IMG/VR virus record: IMGVR_UViG_3300028129_000070
Location: 1-22,605 of that record
Direction: 5' to 3' (one strand)
Length of the DNA stretch: 22,605 nucleotides
DNA from: a virus
Position numbers and translations under genes: made by a program. Every line of letters starts with the position of its first letter. Positions within the stretch are counted from its first letter, which is position 1. This document shows, one piece after another, positions 1 to 22,605 of this stretch. Under the pieces are notes generated by a model. It had not been told where the DNA came from, ran no database searches, and was given only the letters and a program-made list of their open reading frames with translations.

Positions 1-288
1 TGCTTGTTTAATTCTCATTGAGATAGTAGGTAGAGCATTATAGATGGTATAGTGGATTAGAAGGTCTGCAATGAAGTTATTGATTAAATCCTTATATGTT
101 TGTGATAAAGTGTTTGATTTAACACCATTATATAATCCTTTTAAAAATCTTGTTCCAATGACCTCCTGTAAATTAGTATCCTGACTAACCTTAATCCAAG
201 GCAATATCAATTCCTCATAATCTATGTTAGGGTCCAATTCACTGAAGTATTTTAACTTCTCTTCACTAATTAATAATACATTTTTCAT
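1..288 (-). CDS. Head-tail connector/adaptor protein, N-terminal part (runs off left edge)
   Basis: The frame is open from an ATG at 286-288 to the window edge and gives 96 residues starting MKNVLLISEEKLKYFSELDP and ending ISMRIKQA. The pattern (a short N-terminal helix, 'LPWIKVSQDTNLQEVIGTRF', then a long helix with YKDLINNFIADLLIHYTIYNALPT split over residues of about 60-88) is what I know from the small head-tail connector proteins that follow the portal in Bacteroidota phages. These form the ring beneath the portal and join head to tail. The ATG lies 3 bases after the portal stop codon, so the two are almost certainly co-transcribed. The C-terminus is not visible. The family call rests on pattern memory and position, not on a search. 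It was missed by simple ORF calling because it is truncated. Confidence 0.7.
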   Translation of the reverse strand, partial: MKNVLLISEEKLKYFSELDPNIDYEELILPWIKVSQDTNLQEVIGTRFLKGLYNGVKSNTLSQTYKDLINNFIADLLIHYTIYNALPTISMRIKQA

Positions 289-291
289 AAT

Positions 292-1389
292 CTATACATT
301 TAGGTCTCCCTCATCATCAAATAGTTTATTCTGTTCAATATACAAATCTAAGTTTAAACCATTTAAGTTAAGTCTTAAGAACCTCTTTATAATAGATATA
401 ATTTGGTCTTGGTATGGTTTGATTGTGGTGTTTAAAAAGTGTGTTTGAGCAGTGATTATTTCATCTTTATTAGAACCTAAACCTGAACTATCCTTAATAC
501 CAATCAAAAGTCCTGATGTTAATCTGTGTGCTGCTAATACATTTGTCTTTACCAACTCATATACTGATGTATAGTAATCATCATTTACAGAGGTTGTAAT
601 GGTTTCAATTTGAGGTTTTAAGTCCATACCATCAGATGTGGTTAAAATGAACTTACCAGCATTCTCAATACCTGAATAGTTGTCCTGAATGTTTCTATAG
701 AAGTCATTTAACTCCTCATCAGTTTCCAATTCAGTTGGAAGGTGAACCCATAGAGATGGACTCATACCTGAGTTTAAATTAAAGTTGTGATACTTCTCTA
801 TAGATATACCTAAATTAATTGCTGGTATCCCTCCTGAGTAGTCAGGAATAGGGAAATACTCTCTACCTGATACATATGGTGTATATGCAAAGATTGTTGA
901 ATCCTCTTCAGACATCATTGAGAAACACTCATATCTTTTTGGTGGATACTTCTTTGTGTTGTTCCATTTTGTTGAATAGTAATATTCCTTAACTCTATCA
1001 TCCTCATCCTTCTTACCAGGTCTTACATATGAATAATCTAAATGGAATACCTCAATGGTCTCTCTACTATTGGTATGAACCACATTTAAAGCAAAACCAC
1101 CATAAAGGACAAAATCCTTTGTTATCTTCATCATTATATCATCCCAACTCTCTCCATCACTATTAGCAAACCTTAACACCTCAGGATTAGATTTACTTCT
1201 TAAACCTTCACCAATAATGTTATCTAACTTTGATTTTAAGATTGAGGAATGTAAAGCACTATCCTGTGCTAGCCCTTGAAGGTATACAGGATAATCATTA
1301 CCCTGTCCCCATGAGACCCATTTCTGACCCCTTTTTTCAATGCTATTAGGATTTTCTACTAAACCAAAACTAAATACCTTTCCTTTCAT
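292..1389 (-). CDS. Phage portal protein
   Basis: This 365-aa protein forms the dodecameric ring at the capsid vertex through which the terminase pumps DNA and to which the tail attaches. The N-terminus has the WGQGNDYPVYL motif (residues about 27-37) followed by helices with 'SALHSSILKSKLDNIIGEGL', typical of portals in Bacteroidota phages. The C-terminal part has the classic portal signature: HRLTSGLLIG (about 288-297), GLGSNKDEI (about 303-311), then an amphipathic helix 'IKPYQDQIISIIKRFL'. At 365 aa it is short for a portal, which usually has 400-550 residues, so it is a minimal version. It ends in TAG, one of only two TAG stops here. It follows the 58-aa gene with a 1-base gap and precedes the connector by 3 bases. 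Its place after the capsid, tail tube and fibre genes, rather than next to the terminase, is unusual. Confidence 0.9.
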   Translation of the reverse strand: MKGKVFSFGLVENPNSIEKRGQKWVSWGQGNDYPVYLQGLAQDSALHSSILKSKLDNIIGEGLRSKSNPEVLRFANSDGESWDDIMMKITKDFVLYGGFALNVVHTNSRETIEVFHLDYSYVRPGKKDEDDRVKEYYYSTKWNNTKKYPPKRYECFSMMSEEDSTIFAYTPYVSGREYFPIPDYSGGIPAINLGISIEKYHNFNLNSGMSPSLWVHLPTELETDEELNDFYRNIQDNYSGIENAGKFILTTSDGMDLKPQIETITTSVNDDYYTSVYELVKTNVLAAHRLTSGLLIGIKDSSGLGSNKDEIITAQTHFLNTTIKPYQDQIISIIKRFLRLNLNGLNLDLYIEQNKLFDDEGDLNV

Positions 1390-1390
1390 C

Positions 1391-1567
1391 TTATCTATTT
1401 TTTAGTTCTTCTAATTCCTTATACATCTCTAGAAGTTTATCTTCTTTATCTTTAATTAAATCATCAGTTGATGGTGTCTCAATTTCTATATCTTTATTTG
1501 AAACTAACTCCATAGTGCCATCTTCTAATTTCCTCCATACCATTTGGTTAATTATTTCTGTATTCAT
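1391..1567 (-). CDS. Small acidic coiled-coil protein, 58 aa
   Basis: This short open frame fills the gap between the tail fibre (start 21 bases away) and the portal (ATG 1 base after this stop). It translates to a protein beginning MNTEIINQMVWRKLEDGTME, with an acidic middle (ETPSTDDLIKDKEDK) and a C-terminal heptad-like helix (LLEMYKELEELKNR) that looks like a short coiled coil. The start is an ATG at 1565-1567 preceded by an A/T-rich leader without a Shine-Dalgarno sequence. An in-frame second Met (residue 9) exists, but the first ATG uses the space best. I do not recognise the family. Position suggests a virion or assembly accessory protein expressed with the portal. Tight packing on both sides supports a real gene. 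Confidence 0.65.
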   Translation of the reverse strand: MNTEIINQMVWRKLEDGTMELVSNKDIEIETPSTDDLIKDKEDKLLEMYKELEELKNR

Positions 1568-1588
1568 AGTATTCTTAGTATTTATCTT

Positions 1589-3421
1589 TTATCTTATTCC
1601 AAAAATTGGGAAATCTGTTGATTTATTAAAACTTATCCCATCTATTGTTGTAGGTAATGAACCTGATTGTGTTGAATGATAGGTATTACCTCTATACATT
1701 GTAGCACTAAATAATGTTCCATGATAGTATGGTCCTGCTAAATTTGTGCTTGATACTGCTTGTATACCAACAGATGCTCCTGATTTGTTGTGTATAGCTA
1801 AAAAGTATACATCTTCTTCTGTTGAAGTTAATACATGGTCAACACCTGTAATAATCTTTTGTCCTGTTGTATTAACTAAAAAGGTTCCAAAACTTGCTTC
1901 TAATGCTCCACCTGTTAATTGACCATTACTATCAATTGTAGATTTATATATTGCTGCTTCAACATTACCAACACCACCAGCACTACTAACATAAACAGAG
2001 AAGTCTCTAATTGTTTGACCTTCAGTTAGTTGTAATGCAACAACTTTTAATTGGTTATTAGAAATACTACTACTAGCAGTCCCATATGTATCAGGGACAT
2101 ATGTTAATCTCCATAAATCATTAGTGTTTCCTGAACCCATTTTAATACCTCTTGTTGTAGAAGATAAACCAGGTTGAGCAGCACCACCACCTCCACCTGA
2201 GGCACTAACAATTGGATTAGCAGGGTCAGAAGTATCAATACTAATATTTATTCCTGCAACTACTGATTCAACACCTTTAAGTGAAGATAAATCAACATCA
2301 GTAATAATTCCATTATTTCTACTATAAGCTTCAAGAGTATCACCATTTAATGTAAGATTATTTATATTAGAATTGTATGCTTCATGCCAATTGTCAGAGT
2401 TATTGGCATTACCAAAACTATTTACATCAATTCTTGAATTTCCATTACTTTGGAATATGTGTGGTTGATTACTACCAGCAGTATAATAATTTACACCACC
2501 AAACCTGTTCTGAGAAAATTGGAAAGTGGTTGCATTATTTTGGTCTTTCATGAGGATACCTGTAGTTCCAGCATTTGCAAATGGTGAATTGTTAACATCC
2601 CAATAATTGTTTTTAAAGAGAAGTGCTGCATTTGAAGTTAATAAAGTATCATTCTCAAACCCAAAAACTCCAAAACCCTTCTCTAATGTTAATCCTGTTT
2701 CATTTCCTAAATTATCAGTGAATCCAATTTTTGTGTTAGGAAGTGCTACTCCACCTGCAACCTGTAAAGTTCCATCATTAACACCTGTGATAAATCCTGA
2801 GTCATTATTTAAAAGAGAGATATCATCACCTTCTTCCATCACATTTGATGGTATTGTTCCTGATGTTAAATAACCTGAATCATTTGTAAGTTCAGATACA
2901 TTATCCCCTGATTCCAAATAAGTGTTTGGAATTGAAGAGATAAATCCTGAATCATTGTTTAATAATGAGTTGTTCTCTCCTTCAACCATTACATTGGTAG
3001 GGATTGATGTAAGATAACCAGCATCATTTGTAAGAAGTGAAACATTCTCACCCTCTTTCATCACATTACTTGGTATAGTCCCTGCAGTAAGATATCCTGA
3101 ATTATTATTTAATTCTGATACATTGTCTCCAATTCTTAATACATCTACAGGTAAACCATCTAAATACCCTGCATCATTTGTAAATTGAGATACATTACCT
3201 GATACATTTACCAATTCACCATCACCCTGAACTCTTGTTGTCCCTGATGTCTGTAATTCTCCATTCACATCTACCTTATCAGTTGATAAAGATAATGCAG
3301 TATCAACTCCATTACCATCCTGAATTGTTGTCTTAGTTGTTCCTGATAAACCTGTGTCCTCTGTGGTTTTTAGTAAGGACCCATAACTTTCATCAATAAA
3401 CTTATTACTTAAGTCTCCCAT
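1589..3421 (-). CDS. Tail fibre / receptor-binding protein with N-terminal GYL-type repeats
   Basis: This 610-aa protein is probably an adhesin at the tail tip. Residues 1-75 form a low-complexity head. Residues 76-211 hold six tandem copies of a 24-26-residue repeat with consensus NVSxLxNDxGYLTS followed by IPSNVMxEGD. Such repeats form elongated beta-structured shafts in many phage fibres. Residues about 212-400 contain asparagine-rich segments. A glycine-rich hinge with a run of five Gly, preceded by the fibre-type phrase 'DPANPIVSAS', lies near residue 410. The last 190 residues look like a globular beta-rich head (LQLTEGQTIRDFSVYVSSAG, EDVYFLAIHN) that would carry host specificity. There is no transmembrane segment. 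The 30 bases before the ATG are nearly all A and T. Function is inferred from architecture; the C-terminal domain may be a shared tip-attachment module and not the receptor binder itself. Confidence 0.8.
   Translation of the reverse strand: MGDLSNKFIDESYGSLLKTTEDTGLSGTTKTTIQDGNGVDTALSLSTDKVDVNGELQTSGTTRVQGDGELVNVSGNVSQFTNDAGYLDGLPVDVLRIGDNVSELNNNSGYLTAGTIPSNVMKEGENVSLLTNDAGYLTSIPTNVMVEGENNSLLNNDSGFISSIPNTYLESGDNVSELTNDSGYLTSGTIPSNVMEEGDDISLLNNDSGFITGVNDGTLQVAGGVALPNTKIGFTDNLGNETGLTLEKGFGVFGFENDTLLTSNAALLFKNNYWDVNNSPFANAGTTGILMKDQNNATTFQFSQNRFGGVNYYTAGSNQPHIFQSNGNSRIDVNSFGNANNSDNWHEAYNSNINNLTLNGDTLEAYSRNNGIITDVDLSSLKGVESVVAGINISIDTSDPANPIVSASGGGGGAAQPGLSSTTRGIKMGSGNTNDLWRLTYVPDTYGTASSSISNNQLKVVALQLTEGQTIRDFSVYVSSAGGVGNVEAAIYKSTIDSNGQLTGGALEASFGTFLVNTTGQKIITGVDHVLTSTEEDVYFLAIHNKSGASVGIQAVSSTNLAGPYYHGTLFSATMYRGNTYHSTQSGSLPTTIDGISFNKSTDFPIFGIR
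2786..3196 (-). repeat. Six tandem 24-26-codon repeats in the fibre gene
   Basis: The copies begin at residues 76, 100, 126, 150, 174 and 200 of the fibre. Each carries the core N(D/N)(A/S)G(Y/F)(L/I). Copies alternate between a 24- and a 26-residue spacing because some have TSGTIPSNV and others TSIPTNV. The second and fifth copies are the closest pair (NVSELxNxSGYLTxGTIPSNVM). Such units can recombine, so copy number may vary between relatives. Confidence 0.85.
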
Positions 3422-3919: not shown

Positions 3920-3942
3920 AATTGGTCTTTGATTATAAATAT

Positions 3943-4642: not shown

Positions 4643-5551
4643 TTATAGTTGGTTAGATGAGAATAAAGTCTCAAATACAATTGCTGATGAGTATTTAAAC
4701 CCAGTCTTTAATCTCACAACATCATTATCTTGAGAATAGAAGATAGAGATTGCATCCATATCATCTAATCCATCCATACCTACATAGAATCCTGCAGATG
4801 GACCTGCAACAACTCTGTCAGTTGATATACCTGGTGTTCCAACAACTTTTACATTGACAAAACCTGGATGAGTTAATACTGAACCATTCATTTCCTCACC
4901 TTGAGTGATGAATAAGTTAGCATTTCTGTAAGATGCTTTATACTTAGCAAAGTTAGCAACAGACATAAATACTAAGATTTCTTGTTCCTGTGCATCAGCT
5001 GGTAAAGCAAATATCATCTTATCTACTTCTTCTAAACCATTAGTGTTAGTGATTGCTACAGAACCTGTAGTTGCATTTACACCTGCAGTGTTAACTGAAT
5101 CAATTGTGTATCCAAAACCATTGAATGCATCACCTCCTGCAGTTGTAGCAGTCCATAATTTTTCTTCAACATATCTTTTCACTTTAGCAGCTACTCCTGA
5201 TGCTATTGAATCAGCAAATGGGATTTCTTCATCACCTGCAATACCAGCTCTTAGGTATTGTGATAAGTATTTATCTTCTAAGTCCTTTGGACATAGTTCT
5301 TGTTTAACTTCTTCTCTGTTTACTACTAAGTCAACTTGAGTGTATTCTACATCAGAACCTGTTGAGTTAACCCAACCACATGCTGCAGTTGATGGAGCAA
5401 CATCATAAGATGCTACATTAATTGTTTTGGTATGTTTGATACCAGCTACTACTTGTGAAAGGCTAGCAGTTTGACCTTCTAAGATTGCCTGAGTGATTAT
5501 AGCACCTGACTCATCTTTCCAATTTCCTAAACTTGATACAATATAAGACAT
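4643..5551 (-). CDS. Major capsid protein (HK97-fold type)
   Basis: This 302-aa protein is the main shell subunit. It follows an acidic scaffold-like gene by only 23 bases, the normal order for capsid genes, and its leader is strongly A-rich. Sequence features include a beta-rich N-terminal region (residues about 30-80, 'VAGIKHTKTINVASYDVA'), the motif LCPKDLEDKYL at about 86-96, a long helix with 'PFADSIASGVAAKVKRYVEEKLW' pieces at 111-133 that corresponds to the HK97 spine helix, and a glycine/alanine-rich A-domain towards the C-terminus ('GFYVGMDGLDDMDAISIFYS'). The LCPKDLE motif is one I know from capsid proteins of Bacteroidota phages. At 302 aa it is in the usual range for a mature-length HK97-fold subunit without a long delta domain, consistent with a separate scaffold. 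No decoration domain is visible. I am confident in the role; the fold is inferred. Confidence 0.85.
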   Translation of the reverse strand: MSYIVSSLGNWKDESGAIITQAILEGQTASLSQVVAGIKHTKTINVASYDVAPSTAACGWVNSTGSDVEYTQVDLVVNREEVKQELCPKDLEDKYLSQYLRAGIAGDEEIPFADSIASGVAAKVKRYVEEKLWTATTAGGDAFNGFGYTIDSVNTAGVNATTGSVAITNTNGLEEVDKMIFALPADAQEQEILVFMSVANFAKYKASYRNANLFITQGEEMNGSVLTHPGFVNVKVVGTPGISTDRVVAGPSAGFYVGMDGLDDMDAISIFYSQDNDVVRLKTGFKYSSAIVFETLFSSNQL

Positions 5552-6282: not shown

Positions 6283-7833
6283 TTACTTATTGTGTTGTTC
6301 CAATATCTCTTTGATTTGGTTCATTATTATTTCATCTTTGGAGTATCTATCCACCTTAGACAAAAAGTTTCCTGCCACAGAGAAACCATTTAAGTTATCA
6401 GGGTCATTCTTTACCATCTCCCATAACTCATCATCTAATATCTTCATAGACACAACCCAACTACCATAAGGTGCAGTCTCTTCATCAAATCCTAATTGAT
6501 ATGCTTTATCACTTTCTCCTTCAATAATCCAACTCTCTACAACACCTGCTTCAACCTTGATACCATTATGTTCCAAATCAACATTCTTGTTGTTTGCTTC
6601 CAACATAAACTTCTCCATAAGTAATCTGATTGTTCTCTTGGTAAAGTATACATAGAACTCCTCATCCTTATTAGGGTCATATCTGAATATGGTCTCATTT
6701 GGAACCATTGCTAATCCTGTGATTATTCTTTTATCCTCATCAATTGATTGGAACTCAGTCTTCATTGACTTCATCTCAACATCACTTGATAACTGAATAT
6801 CTTTCATTCTTCTTCCTACCCACTTCAACATAGGGTCTCCACCCCATCCTAAGTAAGATATTGTCCCACATGAAATATTCTTTAGTTCATCATCTGTTAA
6901 TCTACCTCTACCTACCAACTCTCTTTCATTGTAGTATTCCCTTGCTCTACTCAAATAAGAGAAGGTTCTCTTCATAATGTTATCAGATAAACCTTTACCC
7001 TTCTCTATATCACCTGCTCTTCTCCTACCTGTTAAGGTCATACACTTTGCTGATGGTGTTTTTAATTCATTCAGTAATCTTGCTTTCTTAGCATTCTCTC
7101 TAGCAGTGATTGGATACCCTGTCCATTGTTTAAACTCATCTGTTGATAAGTTCTCCTTAACTTCTTTAGATACCCTCTGAACAGGTTTGTTAACCACCTC
7201 AGCTTCTGAACTTGGGTTCTGAACTTTAGGATTAACTTTTCTGTCATTAACTACTTGGAAATCAACCCTTTTCCACATATGCCTACAATTGTAAGACCCC
7301 TTGTTTTGGAATATATCATAATATCCAAACTCATCATTAGCCTCATTAGCAGTCATATACATAATGTCCTCAAATCTAAACAATGTGTTAGATTGTTGTC
7401 TCATCATATAACCACAGAAATCTCTATTCTTAGAGTCTGTAGGACCCTCATAATAAAATCTGACCCTTACCCTTTCATCTCCTGCTCCATAGTCTAAGAA
7501 ACTATCTGAGTCAGTCTTACCATCAATGTAAGACCTCTTAAGAAACTCATTGTTCATCTTCTTCATTATATCCAAATACTCTTGGTGTGAATCAACAACA
7601 ACATCCTTAAGTATTTTTGATTTCTTTAATATATCTTTACTCTCACCAATTTCCTCTTCTTCTAAAAGTTTGATGATTTCTGATTGTGTTTTTTTATCCA
7701 TTACCTTCTTATCATTCTTAAATGCTAAGAAATTTCTTTGGATTGCAGGGTCTGAAACAATTGAGATAAACTCAATTCCTGCCTCATCCTCTAAATCCTC
7801 AATGAATAATTCTATAATTTTTGGGTTTTTCAT
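6283..7833 (-). CDS. XkdF-type prohead protease with an inserted head-morphogenesis region
   Basis: This 516-aa protein appears composite. Residues 1-38 (KIIELFIEDLEDEAGIEFIS, then VSDPAI) match the start of XkdF-type phage serine proteases, and residues 368-490 match their main domain ('ITGLAMVPNETIFRYD', 'VDLEHN' at 418-423, 'VVESWIIEG', 'YGSWVVSMKILDDELW', 'GFSVAG' at 483-488). His-422 and Ser-485 are candidate catalytic residues by family analogy. Between these lie about 330 other residues. Residues 119-192 resemble the C-terminus of Mu F/SPP1 gp7-like minor head proteins (DFCGYMMR at 138-145, NCRHMW at 182-187, possible metal ligands). Residues 262-342 resemble a second phage-head module (CMTLTGRRRAGDIEKGKGLS, 'ISYLGWGGDPMLKW'). 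It starts 4 bases after the tape measure stop. It likely processes the prohead and helps assembly at the portal vertex. The separate parts are recognised by motif only. Confidence 0.75.
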   Translation of the reverse strand: MKNPKIIELFIEDLEDEAGIEFISIVSDPAIQRNFLAFKNDKKVMDKKTQSEIIKLLEEEEIGESKDILKKSKILKDVVVDSHQEYLDIMKKMNNEFLKRSYIDGKTDSDSFLDYGAGDERVRVRFYYEGPTDSKNRDFCGYMMRQQSNTLFRFEDIMYMTANEANDEFGYYDIFQNKGSYNCRHMWKRVDFQVVNDRKVNPKVQNPSSEAEVVNKPVQRVSKEVKENLSTDEFKQWTGYPITARENAKKARLLNELKTPSAKCMTLTGRRRAGDIEKGKGLSDNIMKRTFSYLSRAREYYNERELVGRGRLTDDELKNISCGTISYLGWGGDPMLKWVGRRMKDIQLSSDVEMKSMKTEFQSIDEDKRIITGLAMVPNETIFRYDPNKDEEFYVYFTKRTIRLLMEKFMLEANNKNVDLEHNGIKVEAGVVESWIIEGESDKAYQLGFDEETAPYGSWVVSMKILDDELWEMVKNDPDNLNGFSVAGNFLSKVDRYSKDEIIMNQIKEILEQHNK

Positions 7834-7837: not shown

Positions 7838-10753
7838 CTATAATTTACTTCTATCAGCTATTCTTTTACTTATGACATTCTCTCTTTGAACTTCCTCAGC
7901 AACTACATATGTCTGTATAATTGGTATAGGGTTTATTGTTCCTGTTTGTGAATCTTCAAATGCTTCATTATCAAACCTACCTGTCTGACTAATAAGATTA
8001 TCTCCTCCACCTAATAAATTTGCTTGGTTAGCTAAAGCAAGTGCTTGTCTGTTTTGTGCAACACCCCTTGTAAGGACTATCTCTCCACCTTCTGCTTCAG
8101 AACCATCTCCCATCATAATACCACCCTGAGCATGTCTTGGTCCATCTAAGATACCACCTCTTCTAAGTTTCCTAGCTGCATTATACTGAGCCACTGCAAT
8201 ACCTAACTGAGCTGCTCCAATAACACCAGCAAGAGCCATTAAGAATGGATTAGGGAATACCTTAACTACATTCATTGCAGTCTGTGCAATAATCTGTAAT
8301 GAGTTTGCTAATAGGTCAGCAATCAGTGCCTTCTTTTTTAACTTCTTCTTCTCAGCCTCATATTCCTTCTCTAATTCTAATCTCTCCTTTTGATACTTCT
8401 TATCAATTCTGTTTTTTGCTCTAACATTATCACCTGCTTTGGTAAGGTCATTCTGATACTCCTCATCAAGTTTCTCAAATCTCTTATCAAATAAAGCATC
8501 TAAATAATCTAACTGAATGTTGGTAAGGTCATTAACTAAGTTTGCTATGTCTGTAGCAACCTGTGCTGCAGTGTTTAAGAAATTAGTTAGACCTTCACTC
8601 TGTTCTTGAAATCTATCCTTAGCTGACTGATTAACCTTATCACTAATATTTTCTTCAGTCTGAATATACATTTTCTCATACTCCTTAAGAAGTTTCTCCC
8701 TCTCATCTTGACTAATATTAGCAATCTTAATCTCCTCCTTCATTTTCTTGAAGGCTGCTAAGTTTTGTTCTCTTAATGACTTTTCATAGTCACTAGTATA
8801 CTCTTGGTCAAACCCATTGATTGTATCATAGAATGTTCTATAGTTATCTTCAACTATTGTTAATCTTTCTCTAGAACCTTCTTCTAAGTTTTGATTAACC
8901 TTATCCTGAACTTTTGATACTTCTTCATAAACTGCATCAATCTCATCTTCAATGTCAGATGTTGCTTTAATTAATGACTTAAGGTTTTTCTCAAATGCTT
9001 CATAACCCCTCTGTTGTTCACTAGTTAACTCACCTGTAATACCTTGTATCTTTTTGAAGGCTACCAATATAGAGTCCTCATAAGCTTCCTGTAATTCAAA
9101 GTTATATGGGTCAGCATAGAGGTCTGCATATGCTTTAGAAACCAATTTTCTTAACTCAACATCTCCACCTAATAGGTTAAATACTTGGATATAACCATTT
9201 TTGATTAATTTGGTAAGTGCATCAGTTGCTTCTTTTGTAAATCCTTTTTCAGATGCTTCTTTTAATACCTGTTCAGTAAATGTTATAAACCCATCACCAG
9301 GTAAACTTTCAAATCCTTCTTCTAACTCTTCTCTTAATGTTGAGAAGTAAAATCCAAATCTATCTGAAGGAACCTCAGCCTTTGTCAATGAATTAGTATA
9401 TTCTTCCAATGGACTTAAGATACCTGTTAATATTTGTTTCTGTTTGTCTAATTTATCATTTAACTTTTCTAACACCTCAACCTCAGGAGCAGTAGTCTGA
9501 CCTAATACCTCAAGAGCTCTGTTATACCTGTCATATGATTTGATAAGTTCATCAATAAGTTTTTTCTCTTTGTCTTTCTGTGTATTACCTTTCTTAGTCT
9601 CTTTAGCAGTCTTTCTTTTCTGAGTATATACCTTTGTCTCAATCTTGAATAGTTTCTCCATCTCAGTATTCAATAACCCCATAAGGTCATTCTGTTCCTC
9701 ATTCAACTCATTCAATTCTTCAGTCTTATTCTCAACATCAGATATTGCTTGATAATATTGGAAGAAGGCTGGATTACCTGTTGATTTTATACCATTCCAT
9801 AGAGTTTCATACCATGAGACATTCTCACCTAATTCTTGGTTCTCCTTTTTGATTGTATCAGTAATCTTCTCTTTGATAAGGTTTAATACTGCATCCACTC
9901 TAGCTTTCTGAACTGCTAATACAATACTATCTTCAACCCTCTCATTTAACATTCTAAGACTATCCTCATTGTCTAAGGTGATATCATTGGTTTCTATACC
10001 TAACTCCTTCAACCTTTCTAATGCAGTCTGTCTCTCTTCCTCTGACCTTGTAGTGTCTAATACTACATCTCTATACTTACCTAATAAGATGGTTGATGAT
10101 TTAGTCTCAGCACCAACCTCAGCAAGTTTCTTCTTTGCTTTATCTAACTGACTTACACTACCAAATATGGCTCCTGTAAGTTTGTCCCAATTAGCAACCA
10201 ATGCTCCCAATGCAATAATTATAAGACCAATCCCTGTAGCAGCTAAAGCAATTCTAAAGGCTTTAAGAGCTCCTGTTGAAGTTCCTACCACTAATGTTGT
10301 AATTGCTTGAACTGCTTGGTAGGCCTTCTCCTGTGCAATCCTCAGGGCTATCTGTCCTTGTAGTCTTGCTTCAGCTAATTGTCTCACCCCAATTGAGATA
10401 GCAATTGCTCCCTGAACCTTAGTTTGTATTTCAGCTAATTTCTCTGAATCAGCACCAAACAAAGCCAAGGCTCCTGCTCCAACTGCAAAGGCTCCTGCTA
10501 TACCCTCACCTAACTTAACAAAGGCTTCAGCCTTCTGTTGAGGTTCTAACCCTTCAAAAGTCTTCTCAAATGTTTTTAGTTCAGACCTTGCATTCTGTAG
10601 TTCTCCTGAAAGTTTCTTAAACCTTGCTGAACCTATATCTTCCTGTTTTAACTCCTCATTAAGTGATTGAATTGTTTCTTCCAATTCATTAACACTTTTG
10701 ATGGATTGTTCTACACCATCAACTTTGAGAGTAATACCTATTGTTTTAGCCAT
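7838..10753 (-). CDS. Tail tape measure protein
   Basis: This 971-aa protein sets tail length and later passes through the membrane during DNA entry. The N-terminus (residues about 10-65) is a coiled coil ('VNELEETIQSLNEELKQ'). Hydrophobic segments occur at about 82-100 (AGAFAVGAGALALFG), 160-188 (IALAATGIGLIIIALGALVA) and 830-860 ('NPFLMALAGVIGAAQLGIAV'). Most of the rest is Lys/Glu-rich helix, with a strong coiled coil just before the third hydrophobic stretch ('KYQKERLELEKEYEAEKKK'). The C-terminus has the tape measure ending pattern RRGGILDGPRHAQGGIMM and 'EAEGGEIVLTRG' near 870-895. By the usual rule of about 0.15 nm per residue the tail would be near 145 nm, which suits a siphovirus. 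It is unusual that the two giant tail proteins are transcribed before it and that the chaperone genes are about 9 kb away. It ends in TAG. Confidence 0.92.
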   Translation of the reverse strand: MAKTIGITLKVDGVEQSIKSVNELEETIQSLNEELKQEDIGSARFKKLSGELQNARSELKTFEKTFEGLEPQQKAEAFVKLGEGIAGAFAVGAGALALFGADSEKLAEIQTKVQGAIAISIGVRQLAEARLQGQIALRIAQEKAYQAVQAITTLVVGTSTGALKAFRIALAATGIGLIIIALGALVANWDKLTGAIFGSVSQLDKAKKKLAEVGAETKSSTILLGKYRDVVLDTTRSEEERQTALERLKELGIETNDITLDNEDSLRMLNERVEDSIVLAVQKARVDAVLNLIKEKITDTIKKENQELGENVSWYETLWNGIKSTGNPAFFQYYQAISDVENKTEELNELNEEQNDLMGLLNTEMEKLFKIETKVYTQKRKTAKETKKGNTQKDKEKKLIDELIKSYDRYNRALEVLGQTTAPEVEVLEKLNDKLDKQKQILTGILSPLEEYTNSLTKAEVPSDRFGFYFSTLREELEEGFESLPGDGFITFTEQVLKEASEKGFTKEATDALTKLIKNGYIQVFNLLGGDVELRKLVSKAYADLYADPYNFELQEAYEDSILVAFKKIQGITGELTSEQQRGYEAFEKNLKSLIKATSDIEDEIDAVYEEVSKVQDKVNQNLEEGSRERLTIVEDNYRTFYDTINGFDQEYTSDYEKSLREQNLAAFKKMKEEIKIANISQDEREKLLKEYEKMYIQTEENISDKVNQSAKDRFQEQSEGLTNFLNTAAQVATDIANLVNDLTNIQLDYLDALFDKRFEKLDEEYQNDLTKAGDNVRAKNRIDKKYQKERLELEKEYEAEKKKLKKKALIADLLANSLQIIAQTAMNVVKVFPNPFLMALAGVIGAAQLGIAVAQYNAARKLRRGGILDGPRHAQGGIMMGDGSEAEGGEIVLTRGVAQNRQALALANQANLLGGGDNLISQTGRFDNEAFEDSQTGTINPIPIIQTYVVAEEVQRENVISKRIADRSKL

Positions 10754-13700: not shown

Positions 13701-14631
13701 ACTCACAACAATCAGTTGTTGATAAAGTATAATCAACCTTAAAAGAGAAACTACCCTCTCTGTCAAATGTATAGAAACCTGTAAAACTATTATATTGGTT
13801 AGATGTATCTGATATCTCAATATCAAATACTACATTGTGGTCTCCTACAGGTATAGCATCATCAGTAGATAAACTAGCATAGAAACTAATATCATCCAAT
13901 GTCTGAACCCCAAACTCACTTGAGAAGGATAAAGGCATATACAAGTTATTAAAGTCATCTGTATTCATAAAATCAGATTGGACCTCATATCCTGCTGATT
14001 CTATAATCTTCTCAATAACCTTATTAACTCTAATTGCTGGTTTGTAATACCAATAAGGTAATGCTGAACCTGGATTGTCAAATGAATAACCACTTAAGGT
14101 AAACTCAATATCAGGTATTACATCCTCATCATCATAACCATAATGTATAAATGGATATACAATATCACCATTAAACAATGCTAATGTCCATGAGTCCCTG
14201 ATATTATCAAATGTTAAATCATGTGTATACTCATTGAAGTTTAAATCACATAATGTTTTTTCTGATGTCTGTGATGATAAGGAACCAACCTGTGAATATA
14301 CCACAACCTCATAGTCAACCTTACCAACATTCACATACATCTTCTCCAATCTAAGTGAACCCACAATGATTACATTACCAGCATTGGTAATAGCACACTC
14401 TAAAGATTGTTTAGGGTCAAAAGAACTATCCTCAAGATTAATCTTAAAGATGTTCCCCATAACCTGATTGTTGAAAGCAGTTCCTGGTATTCTAAAAGTC
14501 TTTGTAAAGTCAGAAGCTCTCTTCTCAAACTCCTGAACTTCTAAGACTGACTTATTAAAATTGATGGACTCATTACCATAAAGGTCTAAATCCTTCCATG
14601 TATTACCTTCTCTAACTTTTAATACTAACAT
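10798..14631 (-). CDS. Giant tail tip / baseplate protein B, 1277 aa
   Basis: This 1277-aa protein is a large tail protein. The N-terminus ('LKVREGNTWKDLDLYGNESI', then 'LEVQEFEKRASDFTKTFRIP' and 'GTAFNNQVMGNIFKIN') matches a pattern I know from large tail proteins beside tape measure genes in Bacteroidota phages. Residues about 1-240 would form the tail-facing part. Next comes a beta-rich region with several cysteine pairs (TTDCCEYEG, 'DCNQYT'), then a section with 'NTQWRINRIIDYDLMDPGKT' near 765. Residues about 865-1135 hold a module also found in the neighbouring 1223-aa protein (see the repeat entries). The C-terminus is rich in Gly, Ser and Tyr and may be a carbohydrate-contacting surface. 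There is no signal peptide or membrane segment. The gap to protein A is 11 bases and to the tape measure 44 bases. A hub or tip role is inferred from size and place; no lysozyme or peptidase motif was visible. Confidence 0.7.
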   Translation of the reverse strand: MLVLKVREGNTWKDLDLYGNESINFNKSVLEVQEFEKRASDFTKTFRIPGTAFNNQVMGNIFKINLEDSSFDPKQSLECAITNAGNVIIVGSLRLEKMYVNVGKVDYEVVVYSQVGSLSSQTSEKTLCDLNFNEYTHDLTFDNIRDSWTLALFNGDIVYPFIHYGYDDEDVIPDIEFTLSGYSFDNPGSALPYWYYKPAIRVNKVIEKIIESAGYEVQSDFMNTDDFNNLYMPLSFSSEFGVQTLDDISFYASLSTDDAIPVGDHNVVFDIEISDTSNQYNSFTGFYTFDREGSFSFKVDYTLSTTDCCEYEGDPYYHLYDRWTRLRGGTLSYYNERFLGYQCDVDNVSFTKDITIQVGPGQTWQVGDQIAFGTSKRVIDCNQYTITSSDNNHSDITYYGCEDDTTPITLRVYAGSPETICANPDIPPVFTQHSGTIVDNGPCPAIHTCDATINFLSTFLLYDTPSEPGIGSSVLISQNMNCDTSQLDFLKGIFQHYNMVVVPDPDDPVKLIIEPWNNWVNAPDVVVRDWTNFLDTGKDVVVQPLVDNDNRYVKLYDVEDDDRYNKLYQDNQNQIFGEVLFDADTQILSKVKEVETIFSPTPSDGVDGNPRFIIPHLYEQDDAGNKSPFATNPRILYYNGLILNTQGSYWVRDENDISYQLYTFPCMSISQYLYGSDVIDRDKRVLSWNNVNNYYSQLTGFNTSNMTGSYYELYWKEYFVDIYDSDSRLITAYFNLPFQEFIQTKLNDKIQISGLFGNTQWRINRIIDYDLMDPGKTKVELTKILQEPEPIKETRTYLLEKCDEQVELVAKYSSFLPLEVGISVQTDKSGFEDVCYEITKVYGNETYDRYYTEYHDRGSGNLPRPYEKTLNIEGVYSWNWTFRGDLLDNTFELRYGINGLPNDGDLIYTSGPMIGSGVYTFDNSNGLNITSSIIYRLTQTPDNRWDYNLIVDRGVLPYTPPNTTTNITELWNNCYDCEFGDSGNIYILEDAGRNVGLTGGPSDIDYLDRIQIWDVGDNATLINFDIQLLDTYTDRYLNIYDGVNITSTLIPTSGPNAGLVSYTMQTTNNFVETTISGLNFTSEIFRSIQNLSIGGITNPRRLYGQSLDNNLTLDTYVYLGPDYPEHHNRVWKVIGKDSTRTPDVQITNPYNTGVLDSISCSGPVSYLTTDMDELYNFFIKVYRDFGSSGQVGWRYSGIGQISGNSYTFDSIYFSPNTSAPRCVDSLYPSVSGTYMSIMNNYVMISEDINGNAVNEPIFVNYTDNNQRFTKEHVYRIV
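11235..12035 (-). repeat. Shared tail module, copy in protein B
   Basis: Residues about 865-1135 of the 1277-aa protein resemble, in the same order, residues about 525-775 of the 1223-aa protein. Matching points are YSWNWTFRGD, GLPNDGDLIYTSG, GVYTFDNSNGL, IYILEDAGRNVGL and NRVWKVIGKDS. Confidence 0.7.
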
Positions 14632-14642: not shown

Positions 14643-17600
14643 TTAATAACCACCTAAAACTTGTAAAGTCCTAATCTCAGGTGATACTTGAACCTCCAAC
14701 TTTAATTGGAAAAGTTTTTGGTTCTTCTTATTTATAATTGTGTATTTTTTATTCAATATATTTACCCTGATAAATGCATCAGTTAACTCATCATACATCA
14801 TATGTTTTGGTGAGGTAAAGATATTCTCAAACCATTCTCTCTCCTCTTGGTTTATATAATCTGTTGTTAACTCATAAATGTCAGTAGCCTGTAAACTATA
14901 GTTGATAGTATCACCAAACTCTTGTTTACCTCTTACATAGGTGTCATTTAATGTTCCTAACTTATCTAAACCTGTAGACCTTGTAGTTCTCTTAACCTCT
15001 GTGGTCTTAAGACTTCTTGCTCTAAATCTGTAGTCATCCCATGTTCCAAACTTATTCAACCAAAATAATGAGTGTGCTTCATTTCTAAGTAAATCACCTG
15101 ATTCAATTAAGTGTGGTTCTTGATTACCATTTATCTGAACTAAGTTTCTGTCATATAACTTATATGATTCTTCTACTCTATCACTCTCTGTTTCACCAAA
15201 TAAATAACTAACCCTTACATCACCAAAGATTAAATCTTTGCTTTGCCATACTTGATAATCTGTATTACTATATGTATCTACCAACAACTCAACTCTACTC
15301 TGAAAAGATATACCAGAATCTTGGTCAGTGTTTGGAACTTCTTGAATACAATACATTCTTTTCCATCTCCCTTTATCTTCTGCTCTATACACATTCCTTC
15401 TTAAAGGACTTAAAGGTTGACCTGTAAAACCAGGAAATCCCATATATAGATTTGTATAGTTAGGATATGTTGATAATTCAGGATTATCTTTTACATATAC
15501 CATCATACTAACATGAATAAACATCTTACCTGATGGTGAATCAGCAACAACACCTGAGATTCTTTGGTTAGGTCCTATTAAAGTATCAGTCTCCCTTGAT
15601 AACATATAACTTAAATACCATGCTGGCATTCCTTGATAATATGATTGATACTCTGATGATAAAATAATATGACCACTATTTGGTTGAGCAGGTATGTTTC
15701 TCATATTACCTCTACCAACCTTTTGTTGATTTTGGTAATTACCTAAATAACCATATCCTTCTCCTGTGTCTTTATTCCATAAGTTTCCATTTACACCATA
15801 TGTAAAATATTGTGTATCTGTTAATGTGGTGTGAAATAAACCTGCAGGGAAACTTGAACTTGGACCCCATCCATTGATGTTTGTGGTGAACTTACCAGCA
15901 TTACCAACCTCTTCTTTAAGTAGGTTAAAGTTATTATCAAAATCATATAACTTAAGTTTCATTTGGTTAGCATTCTTAAGGGACTTGTCATTACCATTCA
16001 TAATTCTCCATACCTTTGTGTAAATTCTAGAACTACTAATGGCAGGTAAACTACTAGCTCTACCAATACCTGTATATACACCAGGTAATAATAAAAACTC
16101 ATCCATAGTAGCAGTATTAACAACAGGGTTAATTTGGAATGTCATTAATAGTTGTTCATAATCATCTCCACTATCCATAGAAATATTCTGACCAATAGTC
16201 TTAGAAGTTAATACTTCAATAACACTTCTTCCATTAACACCTGTATAATTTATACCTTCAAGACTTCTACCTGTTAAACTCTTTACCTCCTCATAGGTAG
16301 CAAATCTACTTTCATCAAGGTTATAAACCTTTAATGATGGTGCTAAGTTAAAGTTATATCTTGTTGTTGTTAAGTCATATTCTTCAGGTAAGTTTGAATC
16401 TAAACCAACAATTATTCCTGTATCATATTCATCATCTTGAAGTATAGCAAAATTATTACCCTGTGCTAAATTAGCAATAACAAGATTTGGGTCCCATTCA
16501 GGGTCTTCATATATGTTAACTTCATACTCCCATGCAGTTCCTGCATTTTCTCTATAGATATACATACCTAACCATAAACCATTAGGATTATCAAACTCAA
16601 AAACCCCTGTATCTGACATATACCCTGAATCATAGATTATATCACCATCAGTTGGTAATCCTTGAGCTGCATATGTTAATACAAATCTATCAGGGATATC
16701 AAAGAACTCCCATGTAAATCTATAAAAACCTGCTTGAGTATAAACTTGTGTATAAGGGTTTGCTCCCTGTTGACCTGAACCACTATATGTATTAAGTAAT
16801 GGACCTTGACCTTGACCTGTTCCACCAATTGGTGGTATATTACCTTGAAATCCTTCTACATTATCATATTGAGCTTTTGCATAACATGAGAATGTTGATG
16901 CTTGAGTGTTTGGTGAATTAGCATTTTCCTTATGGGTTGTAAGTTTCTCAATATCTTTAAATGAATTTAGGTTATTAAACCCTACCCAATTCTTATACAC
17001 TGAATTATCATCATTACTTTGTGCAATATACCTATAAGTTAATAACTCAGCTGGTCCTCTATAATCACATATCTTATCACCTTCCATATATTTTACTCCA
17101 TCAGGAGTAAACCTTCCAGCTACATTATACATAATATTTTCACCACCATATGTAAAATCTCCATCATAAGCATCATTAGTTATATTAACTCTACTACCTT
17201 CTTTAAAGGTATTGTATTTAACATATTCCCAACCTGTCTCAATCTTTCTTTGATTAGATTTACTAACACCTTCTCCTTGACCTGTAAACCTACCATCTCC
17301 ATAAATTTCATAATCAAATCCAAATGTGTCATATATTGGTTGGTTAAATACAGGACTATTAGGTTGGTATCTTACCTCATCAACTAATAAACCTGATGGG
17401 TCATAAAATTCATAACCTATGGTTTGTATTCTTTGTCTATAATTATTATATGGTTCAATCCTTCCAAATGGTTCTACAACCTCATCATCATTAGAGAAGT
17501 TTCTACCAATGGTTGCTCTATCATAGTTAGCAGGGTTTTGATTGTTATTATCACTTTTCTTATTCCATAATGTAATATAGTTGGTCTCATAGAATGAAGC

Positions 17601-18314
17601 ACTCTGTGGTATACCCTCAAACCTTAATCTCTTTAAAGGTCTATGTGATAACTCCTTAATATTATCATTAACATATAAGGTGTTGTATTGATTACCACTT
17701 AAGGTTTCATAATAATTACTACCACCATCATATCCTGCAGTATTCATCATACCCTTATTAATCCTTTCTAAGACATCTAAATGATTGGAACTGAACTGAA
17801 CATTACTTAAGTCTCCTGATGCTCTTAAAACCTCCTCAGAATTAGCATCCATAGCATGATATGATGAATACCATGATGACACATATACTGATGGTTCTCC
17901 TATACTATCAAACCCATCAAATATGGTTAATGCTCCATTTACCTTATACTCCTCACCTGCTAATATCTTAACAGATTTCATTACAAGATAATTTGTATTT
18001 ACAATATACAATTGTGTGTTTGTCTGTCTATCTTCATCAGGTGATGGTCTTGGTGTTAAGTGGTTAAAGTTATCCTCAACATAGTTCTTAAGAATATCTG
18101 ATATCTCAACAGATGCATAGTTGAGGTAAGATGCTAAAGACTTAACCCTTGCAACCTTTTCATCATTAATGTATATATCAAATAAGAACCTATGGTTAGG
18201 TTCTGCAGTTTTATCTGATAGAGTTGTGGCTCCATTTATACTATATGCTGGTTGGATAAAGGATGGTTTCTTATACACATCTCTACCATCTGTTCCATAA
18301 TTAGTTGTTATCAT
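14643..18314 (-). CDS. Giant tail tip / baseplate protein A, 1223 aa
   Basis: This 1223-aa protein follows the gp10-like gene with a gap of 2 bases. The N-terminus ('KKPSFIQPAYSINGATTLSD', 'NHRFLFDIYINDEKVARVKS', 'VEISDILKNYVEDNF') and the C-terminus ('LFWLNKFGTWDDYRFRARS', 'TEVKRTTRSTG', 'REWFENIFTSPKHMMY') both match a family I recognise from Bacteroidota phage tails. The middle holds a module shared with protein B (residues about 525-775). The protein is rich in Asn, Tyr, Gly and Ser, is beta-rich throughout and has no membrane segment or signal peptide. A distal tail or baseplate wedge role is likely; direct receptor contact is possible. No enzymatic motif was seen. It ends in TAA 11 bases before the start of protein B, so both are probably translated from one message in similar amounts. 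Confidence 0.7.
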   Translation of the reverse strand: MITTNYGTDGRDVYKKPSFIQPAYSINGATTLSDKTAEPNHRFLFDIYINDEKVARVKSLASYLNYASVEISDILKNYVEDNFNHLTPRPSPDEDRQTNTQLYIVNTNYLVMKSVKILAGEEYKVNGALTIFDGFDSIGEPSVYVSSWYSSYHAMDANSEEVLRASGDLSNVQFSSNHLDVLERINKGMMNTAGYDGGSNYYETLSGNQYNTLYVNDNIKELSHRPLKRLRFEGIPQSASFYETNYITLWNKKSDNNNQNPANYDRATIGRNFSNDDEVVEPFGRIEPYNNYRQRIQTIGYEFYDPSGLLVDEVRYQPNSPVFNQPIYDTFGFDYEIYGDGRFTGQGEGVSKSNQRKIETGWEYVKYNTFKEGSRVNITNDAYDGDFTYGGENIMYNVAGRFTPDGVKYMEGDKICDYRGPAELLTYRYIAQSNDDNSVYKNWVGFNNLNSFKDIEKLTTHKENANSPNTQASTFSCYAKAQYDNVEGFQGNIPPIGGTGQGQGPLLNTYSGSGQQGANPYTQVYTQAGFYRFTWEFFDIPDRFVLTYAAQGLPTDGDIIYDSGYMSDTGVFEFDNPNGLWLGMYIYRENAGTAWEYEVNIYEDPEWDPNLVIANLAQGNNFAILQDDEYDTGIIVGLDSNLPEEYDLTTTRYNFNLAPSLKVYNLDESRFATYEEVKSLTGRSLEGINYTGVNGRSVIEVLTSKTIGQNISMDSGDDYEQLLMTFQINPVVNTATMDEFLLLPGVYTGIGRASSLPAISSSRIYTKVWRIMNGNDKSLKNANQMKLKLYDFDNNFNLLKEEVGNAGKFTTNINGWGPSSSFPAGLFHTTLTDTQYFTYGVNGNLWNKDTGEGYGYLGNYQNQQKVGRGNMRNIPAQPNSGHIILSSEYQSYYQGMPAWYLSYMLSRETDTLIGPNQRISGVVADSPSGKMFIHVSMMVYVKDNPELSTYPNYTNLYMGFPGFTGQPLSPLRRNVYRAEDKGRWKRMYCIQEVPNTDQDSGISFQSRVELLVDTYSNTDYQVWQSKDLIFGDVRVSYLFGETESDRVEESYKLYDRNLVQINGNQEPHLIESGDLLRNEAHSLFWLNKFGTWDDYRFRARSLKTTEVKRTTRSTGLDKLGTLNDTYVRGKQEFGDTINYSLQATDIYELTTDYINQEEREWFENIFTSPKHMMYDELTDAFIRVNILNKKYTIINKKNQKLFQLKLEVQVSPEIRTLQVLGGY
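16000..16740 (-). repeat. Shared tail module, copy in protein A
   Basis: Residues about 525-775 of the 1223-aa protein. Matching points to protein B in order are YRFTWEFFDI, GLPTDGDIIYDSG, GVFEFDNPNGL, FAILQDDEYDTGIIVGL and YTKVWRIMNGNDKS. The divergence shows an old duplication or exchange, not a recent repeat. Confidence 0.7.
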
Positions 18315-20196: not shown

Positions 20197-21522
20197 TTAT
20201 CTGGCTCCTCCACCTGACATTATCTTATACCTACCCTTAGGTTGTAGTTCATACCACATCCTAAACATTATGGTATCTGAGATATCAGGAGACTTACCAA
20301 TGTTCTTCTTAACTTGGTCTTTTGGAATAACTTGGTTCTTACCATCCTTATCCACATCCTTTATTCTATGAGCAATTAACTCCTTTGATAATTGTTCCTG
20401 TAAACTCATCTTCATATCACCAAAATTAATCTTACCATCCTTAACATATTCTGACAATAAGAAATAACATTGTGATTTAAGATTGTTGTAGTTCCCTTCC
20501 TTCAATGGTCTTGAACCATTCTTAAATCCTTTACACCTCAACAAATCCACAACACCAATTCCCAATCCATCAGCATCCACTATGATATTCTTTAATGGGA
20601 CATTATAAGAGGTTTTAAGGGACTTTATTTTCTCAACTATGTTAGGTATAGACTGATGGGTTAATATGTCCATAGAGATGAGGTTAAGACCATTCCATAC
20701 ACATAAGACAGACCTGTCATCACCATAGGATGCTATATCCCCTGTAATGTAATAACTACCATCTTCCATATCATTATTGAAACACATGTTGATATCATTG
20801 TATGAGAACAACTGGTCTATTGAACTATCATAATCCCAATTACCCTCCAACAACCTCTTCCTACTTTCCTCAGGTAGTTTCTTTAACTCCTTTAAATAAC
20901 TCTCAGGTAAATGTGGGTTATCTGTTGGTAAGGATTGTATAAAGGTTTTATACTCCTCCAAATCTCCATCCCTATCAGGTTTATAGAAATACTCATACAA
21001 CCAATTCTGTGATGGGTTGGTTGTTAGTAATATCTTTGGAGTTATGTCATACTCTTTTATCTTATATCTAAATCTTGATTTGATTACCTGAAATGCTTTG
21101 AAGGATACCTGTGATGCCTCATCCACAAATCCTCCTGTCAATTCTAAAGAACCTAAGGAATCATACTCAGGGTCTGATGGGTATAAGAATAAATCCTTTA
21201 AGATAATCTCTGAACCATTATAGAATGTGAATACATTTGTTTGTCCATTGAATGTCCAATGTGTTCCCTCCTTCAATTGTAGATTTACAAATACCTCAAA
21301 CATGGTCTTAAGTGTTGTAAGTTTTAATTGTGTTAACTTACTCCTTCCTACCAACATTCTAATACCCTCATATTGAAGACAGGATATAATCACCCACATA
21401 CAACCCAAATAAGATTTACCACCACCAACTCCACCACCATAGAGAACCTCTGTTGTAGTGTCATCAATTAACTTTCTAAAAGCTATTTTTTGTTTAGGTA
21501 ATAGTTCAGGATTTACAACCAT
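20197..21522 (-). CDS. terL: Terminase large subunit (TerL)
   Basis: This 441-aa packaging motor cuts concatemeric DNA and pumps it into the prohead through the portal. The ATPase domain has Walker A GGGVGGGKS (29-37), Walker B FVDEA (132-136, catalytic Glu-135) and coupling motif TTN (167-169). The RNase H-like nuclease domain shows the expected acidic residues: D262 in 'YYITGDIASYGDDRS', D316/D318 in 'NIIVDADGLGIG', and D413/D416 in 'SPDISDTIMF'. Length is typical. It begins with ATG at 21520-21522 after an A/T-rich leader without Shine-Dalgarno. It follows TerS by 29 bases. The nuclease and ATPase sites are all intact, so the protein is probably functional. The packaging strategy (cos, pac or direct repeats) cannot be judged from this window. 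Confidence 0.96.
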   Translation of the reverse strand: MVVNPELLPKQKIAFRKLIDDTTTEVLYGGGVGGGKSYLGCMWVIISCLQYEGIRMLVGRSKLTQLKLTTLKTMFEVFVNLQLKEGTHWTFNGQTNVFTFYNGSEIILKDLFLYPSDPEYDSLGSLELTGGFVDEASQVSFKAFQVIKSRFRYKIKEYDITPKILLTTNPSQNWLYEYFYKPDRDGDLEEYKTFIQSLPTDNPHLPESYLKELKKLPEESRKRLLEGNWDYDSSIDQLFSYNDINMCFNNDMEDGSYYITGDIASYGDDRSVLCVWNGLNLISMDILTHQSIPNIVEKIKSLKTSYNVPLKNIIVDADGLGIGVVDLLRCKGFKNGSRPLKEGNYNNLKSQCYFLLSEYVKDGKINFGDMKMSLQEQLSKELIAHRIKDVDKDGKNQVIPKDQVKKNIGKSPDISDTIMFRMWYELQPKGRYKIMSGGGAR

Positions 21523-21551
21523 AACTTGTAATTATCTTTTTAACTTTGTAT

Positions 21552-21968
21552 TTAGTCTCCTAAGTCCAATTTAATGTCCACTTTACCATTTCCATCACTT
21601 GATACTGATAGGACTTGAGTTTGGTATATACCCATAATCTTTGACAATTCTTTTATGGTATCCAATTCTATTTTCTTATCATCATCTTTTCTTCCTCTTT
21701 TGTTCAGGTCAAATAATAAGTGTAATACTTTCTGCATCATATCTTCTCTCTCATCTGAGAATTGACTTCTTATCTTTTCCCAAGCATATACCCAAAATTT
21801 ATTTCCATCTATGATATCATGTTCACTTCTTATCCATTGACAGAACTCATTCCAATTGTAGTGTTCATAGAGTATCTTCTCCATACAGGTATTCACCACT
21901 TGTTCTCTCTGTGCTTTTGTAAACTTTGGACCTGTCTTTCTTTTCTTCTTTGGTTTATCCTTGCTCAT
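21552..21968 (-). CDS. terS: Terminase small subunit (TerS)
   Basis: This 138-aa protein precedes TerL and would recognise the viral DNA and regulate TerL. The N-terminus is very basic (SKDKPKKKRKTGPKFTKAQR), then come helices with HTH-like spacing ('YNWNEFCQWIRSEHDIIDGN', 'KFWVYAWEKIRSQF'). The central helix 'DMMQKVLHLLFDLNKRGRKD' and the end 'DTIKELSKIMGIYQTQVL' fit the oligomerisation part of small terminases of Bacteroidota phages. Its ATG overlaps the end of the 98-aa MGCGCK gene by 14 bases, so the two are probably translationally coupled. Size is typical. Function rests on pattern and on its position just before TerL. Confidence 0.8.
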   Translation of the reverse strand: MSKDKPKKKRKTGPKFTKAQREQVVNTCMEKILYEHYNWNEFCQWIRSEHDIIDGNKFWVYAWEKIRSQFSDEREDMMQKVLHLLFDLNKRGRKDDDKKIELDTIKELSKIMGIYQTQVLSVSSDGNGKVDIKLDLGD

Positions 21969-22251
21969 TGGTATTTATTTTTTCAAACTCTTTATAGAAG
22001 TTGTTTAGGTTTTTCTGTATAATAACTCTCTGTTTGATATTCAATGTGTCAGTCATTGTTGAGTTGACAAATATCTTATTATGTATATGAAAGATAATCC
22101 CCCACTCTTCTAATGTTTTGGATTTCTTGTTTAACAATTCATTATACATATACAGAGTTTCAGTTATTAACTTTTTGGTCCATCTTGTTTCCCTAATCTC
22201 CAATCCTTTAAATTGGTCTTGACCCTTTCTTGATTTACATCCACATCCCAT
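21955..22251 (-). CDS. Small cysteine-start protein (MGCGCK), 98 aa
   Basis: This 98-aa protein begins MGCGCKSRKGQ. A Cys-X-Cys at the very N-terminus is a feature I have seen in short Bacteroidota phage proteins. The rest is helical and Lys/Asn-rich: 'KKLITETLYMYNELLNKKSK', 'EWGIIFHIHNKIFVNS', and 'IQKNLNNFYKEFEKIN'. No membrane segment or known enzyme motif is visible. The N-terminal Cys residues could bind a metal or receive a lipid only if followed by a signal sequence, which is absent, so a metal site or thiol contact is more likely. It ends with TAA inside the TerS start region (14-base overlap). I cannot assign a function; position suggests a packaging-associated protein. Confidence 0.7.
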   Translation of the reverse strand: MGCGCKSRKGQDQFKGLEIRETRWTKKLITETLYMYNELLNKKSKTLEEWGIIFHIHNKIFVNSTMTDTLNIKQRVIIQKNLNNFYKEFEKINTNEQG

Positions 22252-22253
22252 AG

Positions 22254-22328
22254 TTATTCTGTTTTTATTTCTGTGATTATTCTAACCCCTGATAATACCA
22301 ATAGGGTTAATAGTATTATGTTTAACAT
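22254..22328 (-). CDS. Possible 24-aa hydrophobic micro-protein
   Basis: A short open frame fills the gap between the HTH gene and the MGCGCK gene. It reads MLNIILLTLLVLSGVRIITE followed by IKTE, that is, one strongly hydrophobic helix of about 14 residues and a charged C-terminus. Its ATG overlaps the end of the HTH gene by 7 bases, and its stop lies 2 bases before the next ATG, as expected in this tightly packed block. It could be a small membrane peptide. It may also be chance, since 24 codons are few and AT-rich spacers often encode hydrophobic residues. Confidence 0.35.
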   Translation of the reverse strand: MLNIILLTLLVLSGVRIITEIKTE

Positions 22329-22605
22329 AACTTTTGTTTTATTATTCTCTTCACCCTTCTTATGGTTGAAGCTATGGTATGATAAGATATTCCTGTTTTG
22401 TTAGCTAATCTCTGATAAGAATATCCTTCATAATAGTATTTATTGAATAGAGCTCTGTCAAACCATCTAAGGTCTCTTAAGACTAAGTCTATTTCTATTA
22501 ATTGTTGTTCCACAATCTTCTTATTATCTATCTCCTCATTTGGATTATCAACACTAGGGTCAAACAATAACTCTGAGGTATTTTGGAAGTGTTTCCTGAA
22601 CTGAT
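22322..22605 (-). CDS. Sigma-4-like helix-turn-helix protein, C-terminal part (runs off right edge)
   Basis: The frame stays open to the right edge, so the N-terminus lies outside the window; a TTG at 22565-22567 is not needed as start. The visible part reads QFRKHFQNTSELLFDPSVDN, then an acidic linker, then 'RDLRWFDRALFNKYYYEGYS' and 'YQRLANKTGISYHTIASTIR' with a basic end 'RVKRIIKQKLC'. The second part is an HTH of the sigma-70 region 4 type. Proteins with the WFDR...LF.kYY.EG.SyqrLa pattern are common just before the terminase genes of Bacteroidota phages. They may act as late-gene regulators or as DNA-recognition helpers of packaging; the sequence does not decide. It is the first of the downstream block and its stop overlaps the micro-ORF start. 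Confidence 0.7.
   Translation of the reverse strand, partial: QFRKHFQNTSELLFDPSVDNPNEEIDNKKIVEQQLIEIDLVLRDLRWFDRALFNKYYYEGYSYQRLANKTGISYHTIASTIRRVKRIIKQKLC

Follow-up and report, generated by a model that had tools for sequence, protein, structure and literature searches.

Complete absence of the CG dinucleotide from a tailed phage of Bacteroidota

The stretch of DNA analyzed here, referred to as the window, is the IMG/VR record IMGVR_UViG_3300028129_000070 (22,605 bp), which covers approximately 82% of the ~27.4 kb genome of a tailed phage of Bacteroidota. Not a single CG dinucleotide was found in the window (0 in 22,605 bp), where about 600 are expected from the base composition (4,571 C and 2,966 G). 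A preliminary description of the same DNA had already reported the missing CG and had put the chance expectation at several hundred, and exact counting bore out both statements. The absence extends to the rest of the genome, with zero CG in the ~27.4 kb of two combined records against 704 expected by composition. Strong selection against CG at the nucleotide level is well supported, and it is considered probable that CG was purged by purifying selection on DNA, with a host defense recognizing the two-base palindrome CG as the agent.

Absence of CG at the nucleotide level

A second record of the same phage, IMGVR_UViG_3300024294_000046 (27,728 bp), was found by a terminase search of IMG/VR. In circularly permuted order, it matches the window along 18,113 bp (99.86% identity) and along 4,776 bp (99.85%), and it contains 4,839 bp not present in the window. 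As the two records are permuted and the second carries a 284-bp end overlap, the genome size is taken to be ~27.4 kb. Since two separate records agree, an assembly artefact was ruled out as the cause of the missing CG. None of the 32 differences between the records creates a CG, while 10.9% of single-base changes would do so, which is suggestive at best. Chance and composition were likewise ruled out under every baseline tried: besides the 704 CGs expected by composition, 296 would be expected in 27.4 kb at the CG density of the closest relative found (the sister phage, see below), and 176 at the lowest ratio among 60 Flavobacteriales genome stretches.

The loss is not confined to particular codons. 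In the larger genes, every one of the 304 arginines is encoded by AGA or AGG, as the preliminary description had noticed, and the arginine content of the phage (3.65%) is close to that of its sister (3.61%). No CGN or NCG codon is used. At codon junctions, C followed by G was seen 0 times vs. 258 expected, in line with the earlier statement that a codon ending in C never precedes one starting with G, and 1,454 bp of non-coding DNA contain 0 CG vs. 23 expected. A bias against CGN arginine codons fails to explain the losses from NCG codons, from junctions and from non-coding DNA; a cause in transfer RNA (tRNA) supply or codon usage was therefore set aside.

Several other short motifs are missing as completely as CG. 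Expectations were obtained from shuffles that preserve the proteins and codon usage and also forbid CG. Under this null, GATC was found 0 times vs. 69 expected, GTAC 0 times vs. 53, and ACAGC together with ACAGT (ACAGY) 0 times vs. 48. The ACAGY motif is not palindromic, and its count is zero on each strand taken separately. CG, GATC and GTAC are palindromes, as are orthodox Type II targets, while ACAGY is not. The sister phage also lacks GATC, GTAC and ACAGC, and retains ACAGT. Losing short, mostly palindromic motifs in this all-or-nothing way is the mark of restriction-site avoidance. In one survey, GATC was under-represented in 46 of 46 phages with a host that carries the cognate enzyme (Rusinov et al. 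2018, PMC6286503).

Sister phage, clade and host

CG ratios (observed/expected) of relatives were counted on the fetched loci only. The closest relative found is a sister phage on contig 3300000928_000571 (L160; 16,487 bp), whose terminase is 68% identical and which groups with the window phage with 100/100 support in the tree. It contains 178 CGs, which together cover 14 of the 16 NCGN contexts. The absence of CG is thus lineage-specific, with a ratio of 0.00 in the window phage vs. 0.38 in the sister. All 51 of the alignable sister CGs are changed in the window phage, vs. 44–67% for other dinucleotides. About 150 other terminase relatives show CG ratios mostly from 0.24 to 1.6, and together with the sister they ruled out zero CG as a trait of the whole phage clade.

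Two segments of the sister are themselves poor in CG. An 889-bp segment, 92.7% identical to the window phage, holds 1 CG where the remainder of the sister predicts 10 (P ~5e-4), and a 1,004-bp stretch of the early region, which carries promoter repeats shared by both phages, holds 0 CG vs. 11 expected (P ~1e-5); both segments were noticed after the fact, and the P values are indicative. These islands (L160:15601-16487 and 11127-12131) are the stretches most similar to the window phage, a pattern that fits transfer of CG-free DNA into the CG-tolerant sister.

Nearly CG-free as well, with a ratio of 0.05, is a distant second lineage within the clade (L010, L092 and L093). Its terminases are 91–100% identical among themselves and 51–52% identical to that of the window phage. 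On the L092 contig (L161, L162), 0 GATC, 0 GGCC and 0 GACTC/GAGTC were counted, along with a strong lack of CTTC/GAAG. The set of avoided motifs therefore differs from that of the window phage. This lineage also encodes a fusion of ParB with an N6/N4 methyltransferase (L010:1339-2631 and L162:7225-8517; PF01555 in L010), which is missing from the window phage.

The host belongs to Bacteroidota and is most likely a marine flavobacterium. Bacterial genomes with terminase relatives were nearly all Bacteroidota, mostly Flavobacteriaceae, and the terminase is 47% identical to those of both Cellulophaga phage phi10:1 and Flavobacterium phage 11b. Promoter-like repeats of the early region, common to the window phage and its sister, consist of TTTGGCAG-N15/16-TATCTTTG followed by a conserved TATCTCAC (L005:6505-6535 and 6789-6820; L160:11179-12298). 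Promoters of the Bacteroidota type carry TTTG near -33 and TANNTTTG near -7, and the early promoters resemble the form TTTG-N19/20-TATCTTTG.

In the 60 Flavobacteriales genome stretches, the CG ratio ranged from 0.25 to 1.21, the lowest values (0.25–0.45) being those of small genomes. Part of the general CG scarcity is thus ordinary for small Flavobacteriales genomes; zero is not. As a host property, zero CG was ruled out by the ratios of the sampled Flavobacteriales, with the exact host not among the identified ones. Since neither the sister and other relatives nor the sampled likely hosts are at zero, neither accounts for the zero CG of the window phage. The possibility raised in the preliminary description, that hosts or relatives share the same CG level, is thereby contradicted for the sampled hosts and relatives.

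Candidate agents of the CG loss

Restriction is regarded as the likely agent because other short motifs are avoided in the same all-or-nothing manner and because the phage has no recognizable methyltransferase: no methyltransferase, restriction or anti-restriction gene was recognized among the searched proteins, which cover nearly all of the 27.4 kb. We infer that the target is CG itself and not a union of several CG-containing motifs. A host defense of this kind would recognize the bare CG palindrome and destroy DNA carrying it, and the phage, having no recognizable methyltransferase or anti-restriction gene, would survive by offering no targets (CG, GATC, GTAC and ACAGY). In the lineage of the window phage, CG would have been added to the list of forbidden motifs, with restriction-site avoidance pushed to its two-base limit. 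Expected sites are about ten times more numerous for CG than for a four-base target (704 by composition vs. 69 for GATC). The preliminary description had suggested strong selection or a CpG-linked modification, with host restriction or a virus-encoded process as examples. Selection is upheld by the sister, the sampled hosts and the loss from coding, junction and non-coding DNA alike, while no sign was seen of DNA modification or of a process encoded by the virus; host restriction stands as the most likely agent in view of the other avoided motifs and the missing methyltransferase, although no CG-recognizing system was found.

Several points weigh against a CG-directed host defense. To our knowledge, no two-base restriction target has been described. 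Neither a CG-recognizing nuclease nor a methyltransferase of that specificity was found in any host, the host being identified only to Bacteroidota, probably Flavobacteriia. The promoter pattern taken alone is weak, with 2 occurrences found vs. 0.56 expected, mildly above chance. By our estimate, lethality is not required either, and a modest cost per replication could hold CG near zero through mutation-selection balance. Finally, according to one paper, prokaryotic CpG methylation is known only in Mollicutes (PMC9465063), so the host would need an undescribed protection of its own CGs, and a classical restriction-modification pair directed at CG would be something new in Bacteroidota.

Among the other explanations, several ordinary restriction systems spread across the host set, each with a CG-containing target of 4–6 bases, might jointly remove all CG contexts. 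Exposure to several systems already follows from the avoidance of GATC, GTAC, ACAGY and other motifs by the window phage, and related flavophages avoid single CG palindromes such as CCGG, CGCG and GCGC. However, every context present in the sister is at zero, including non-palindromic ones (103 expected for ACGA/TCGT, 50 for ACGG/CCGT and 42 for ACGC/GCGT), and clearing all 16 contexts would require many systems or very short targets, which leaves this explanation unlikely. Modification-dependent restriction was judged to have a small probability; here CG would be methylated in some hosts, and methyl-CG would be cut in different hosts or by other elements (Mrr-, McrA- or MspJI-like), so that any CG becomes costly on passage between hosts. 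Enzymes restricting CG-modified DNA do exist (cited in PMC12707154), but no sign of CG methylation was seen in Flavobacteriia here, and the scheme requires a pair of hosts that differ in opposite ways. Self-avoidance, in which a CG-cutting nuclease made by the phage destroys host DNA and the phage is immune through having no CG, would have a candidate outside the window, at L005:7932-8456. This gene encodes 174 aa with a PD-(D/E)XK-like motif, and the CG-containing sister lacks it at the corresponding position. The motif was read by eye, however, and the protein has no family match and no relatives in phages or IMG/VR; no homologue turned up among the fetched loci, those of the second CG-poor lineage included, its structure model was unusable (predicted local distance difference test, pLDDT, 36), and a junction resolvase would be an equally good reading. 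Self-avoidance was therefore considered very unlikely.

Mutational decay, whether by deamination of methylated CG to TG/CA or by a host mutation bias stripping CG, finds some ground in the background bias of small Flavobacteriales genomes (0.25–0.45) and in the fact that TG or CA now stands at 21 of the 51 sister CG positions. The remaining 30 changed to other dinucleotides, though, arginine was kept through AGR codons, and the enrichment of TG/CA (1.20) does not exceed that of the CG-containing sister (1.25). Methylcytosine is roughly tenfold hypermutable, whereas 0 CG vs. 704 expected requires a loss rate hundreds of times the rate of gain, far in excess of that value, and decay is very unlikely as the cause. 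Sensing at the RNA level, by a host factor recognizing CpG in phage transcripts as the vertebrate antiviral protein ZAP does, finds some room in the palindromic nature of CG, since the sequence alone cannot separate DNA from RNA targeting. Against it stand the CG-free state of non-coding DNA, some of it promoter, and the absence of the non-palindromic ACAGY from both strands, an absence that points to DNA. We know of no bacterial CpG-sensing RNA factor of the ZAP kind, and such sensing was assigned a very low probability.

When known systems are considered, the avoidance of CpG by vertebrate RNA viruses (ZAP) resembles the present case in that selection against CG acts over a whole viral genome. 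The genomes of these viruses still contain some CG; here, unlike there, a double-stranded DNA phage of a bacterium is concerned, whose other avoided motifs speak for a DNA target. Restriction-site avoidance in phages (PMC6286503) is similar in that short motifs are absent far beyond chance and avoidance takes the place of self-methylation; it differs in that the avoided unit here is a two-base palindrome. In Mollicutes with methyltransferases of the M.SssI/M.MpeI type (PMC9465063), CG is also the unit concerned, with genomes of Mycoplasma agalactiae at 0.46–0.50 of expectation, while here CG is at zero, in a Bacteroidota phage and without a phage methyltransferase. Phages phi10:1 and 11b are, like the window phage, tailed flavobacterial phages; unlike it, they have CG ratios of 0.87 and 0.67 and larger genomes, and phi10:1 encodes two DNA methylases. 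No precedent for complete loss of a dinucleotide in a double-stranded DNA phage was found in the open-access literature searched, which is not proof that there is none.

A broader proposal, that marine Bacteroidota carry a defense against bare CG, as short as a palindromic target can be, outside the Mollicutes, from which CpG-specific enzymes are known, and that at least two phage lineages have responded by eliminating CG completely or nearly so, is tentative and somewhat doubtful. If a host system does drive the loss, marine Bacteroidota hold a CG-recognizing defense that awaits discovery; it would add a new specificity to those of known restriction systems and might serve as an enzymatic tool for CpG analysis. 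The CG-free phage and its CG-containing sister form a clean natural experiment on how defense shapes genome composition and gene flow.

Gene content and further observations

The CG-free DNA, which by motif counts also lacks GATC and GTAC, spans the entire window (positions 1–22,605, no strand assigned). The phage encodes a terminase, a portal protein, a head protease of the XkdF type, a tape measure protein, a sigma-like regulator and a replication-initiation-like protein. All the genes located in the window and described below lie on the minus strand. The terminase large subunit (20197–21522; PHROG phrog_2, E=6.5e-36) has flavobacterial phages and Bacteroidota prophages as its nearest relatives in the tree; a first genome scan using a narrow terminase alignment led nowhere. 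The portal protein (292–1389; phrog_11226, E=6e-29) has a homologue with 54% identity in the sister. A repeat-rich tail-fiber-like protein (1589–3421) contains the 889-bp segment shared with the sister, and the probable major capsid protein (4643–5551) was assigned by position, with a weak similarity of 21% to a protein in L092.

Further along the window lie a head protein with an XkdF-type protease domain (6283–7833; Pfam PF14550, E=6e-17) and the tail tape measure protein (7838–10753), recognized by phrog_18891 (E=7e-6) together with its length and position. Two large tail proteins of unknown family follow, one assigned by position (10798–14631) and the other distantly related to the sister's counterpart (14643–18314). 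The 3' part of a sigma-70 region 4-like regulator is found at 22322–22605 (PF08281, E=2e-6; phrog_1740, E=6e-5), the full gene being L005:8794-9336. Relatives of the capsid protein, the fiber protein, the nuclease candidate and the DUF6712 protein were found only in the window phage and its sister, apart from one weak match to the fiber.

The GC dinucleotide is depleted as well, with ratios of 0.56 in the window, 0.42 in the sister and 0.41–0.75 in much of the sister clade. Relatives sharing this depletion include L102, L020, L114 and L129, and the sampled host genomes range from 0.83 to 1.28. The depletion looks older, clade-wide and independent of the CG loss. It had escaped the preliminary description, as had the absence of GATC, GTAC and ACAGC/ACAGT. 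The composition biases of the clade are unusually diverse: in the related phage contig L073, GC reaches 2.01 and CG 0.32. In the relative L119, CG is at 0.24 and CA/TG is depleted too (0.75), contrary to what deamination would produce. Another strong avoidance signature was seen for CATG, which is wholly absent in the relatives L017, L072, L075, L079 and L081 (0 found, with 14 to 56 expected).

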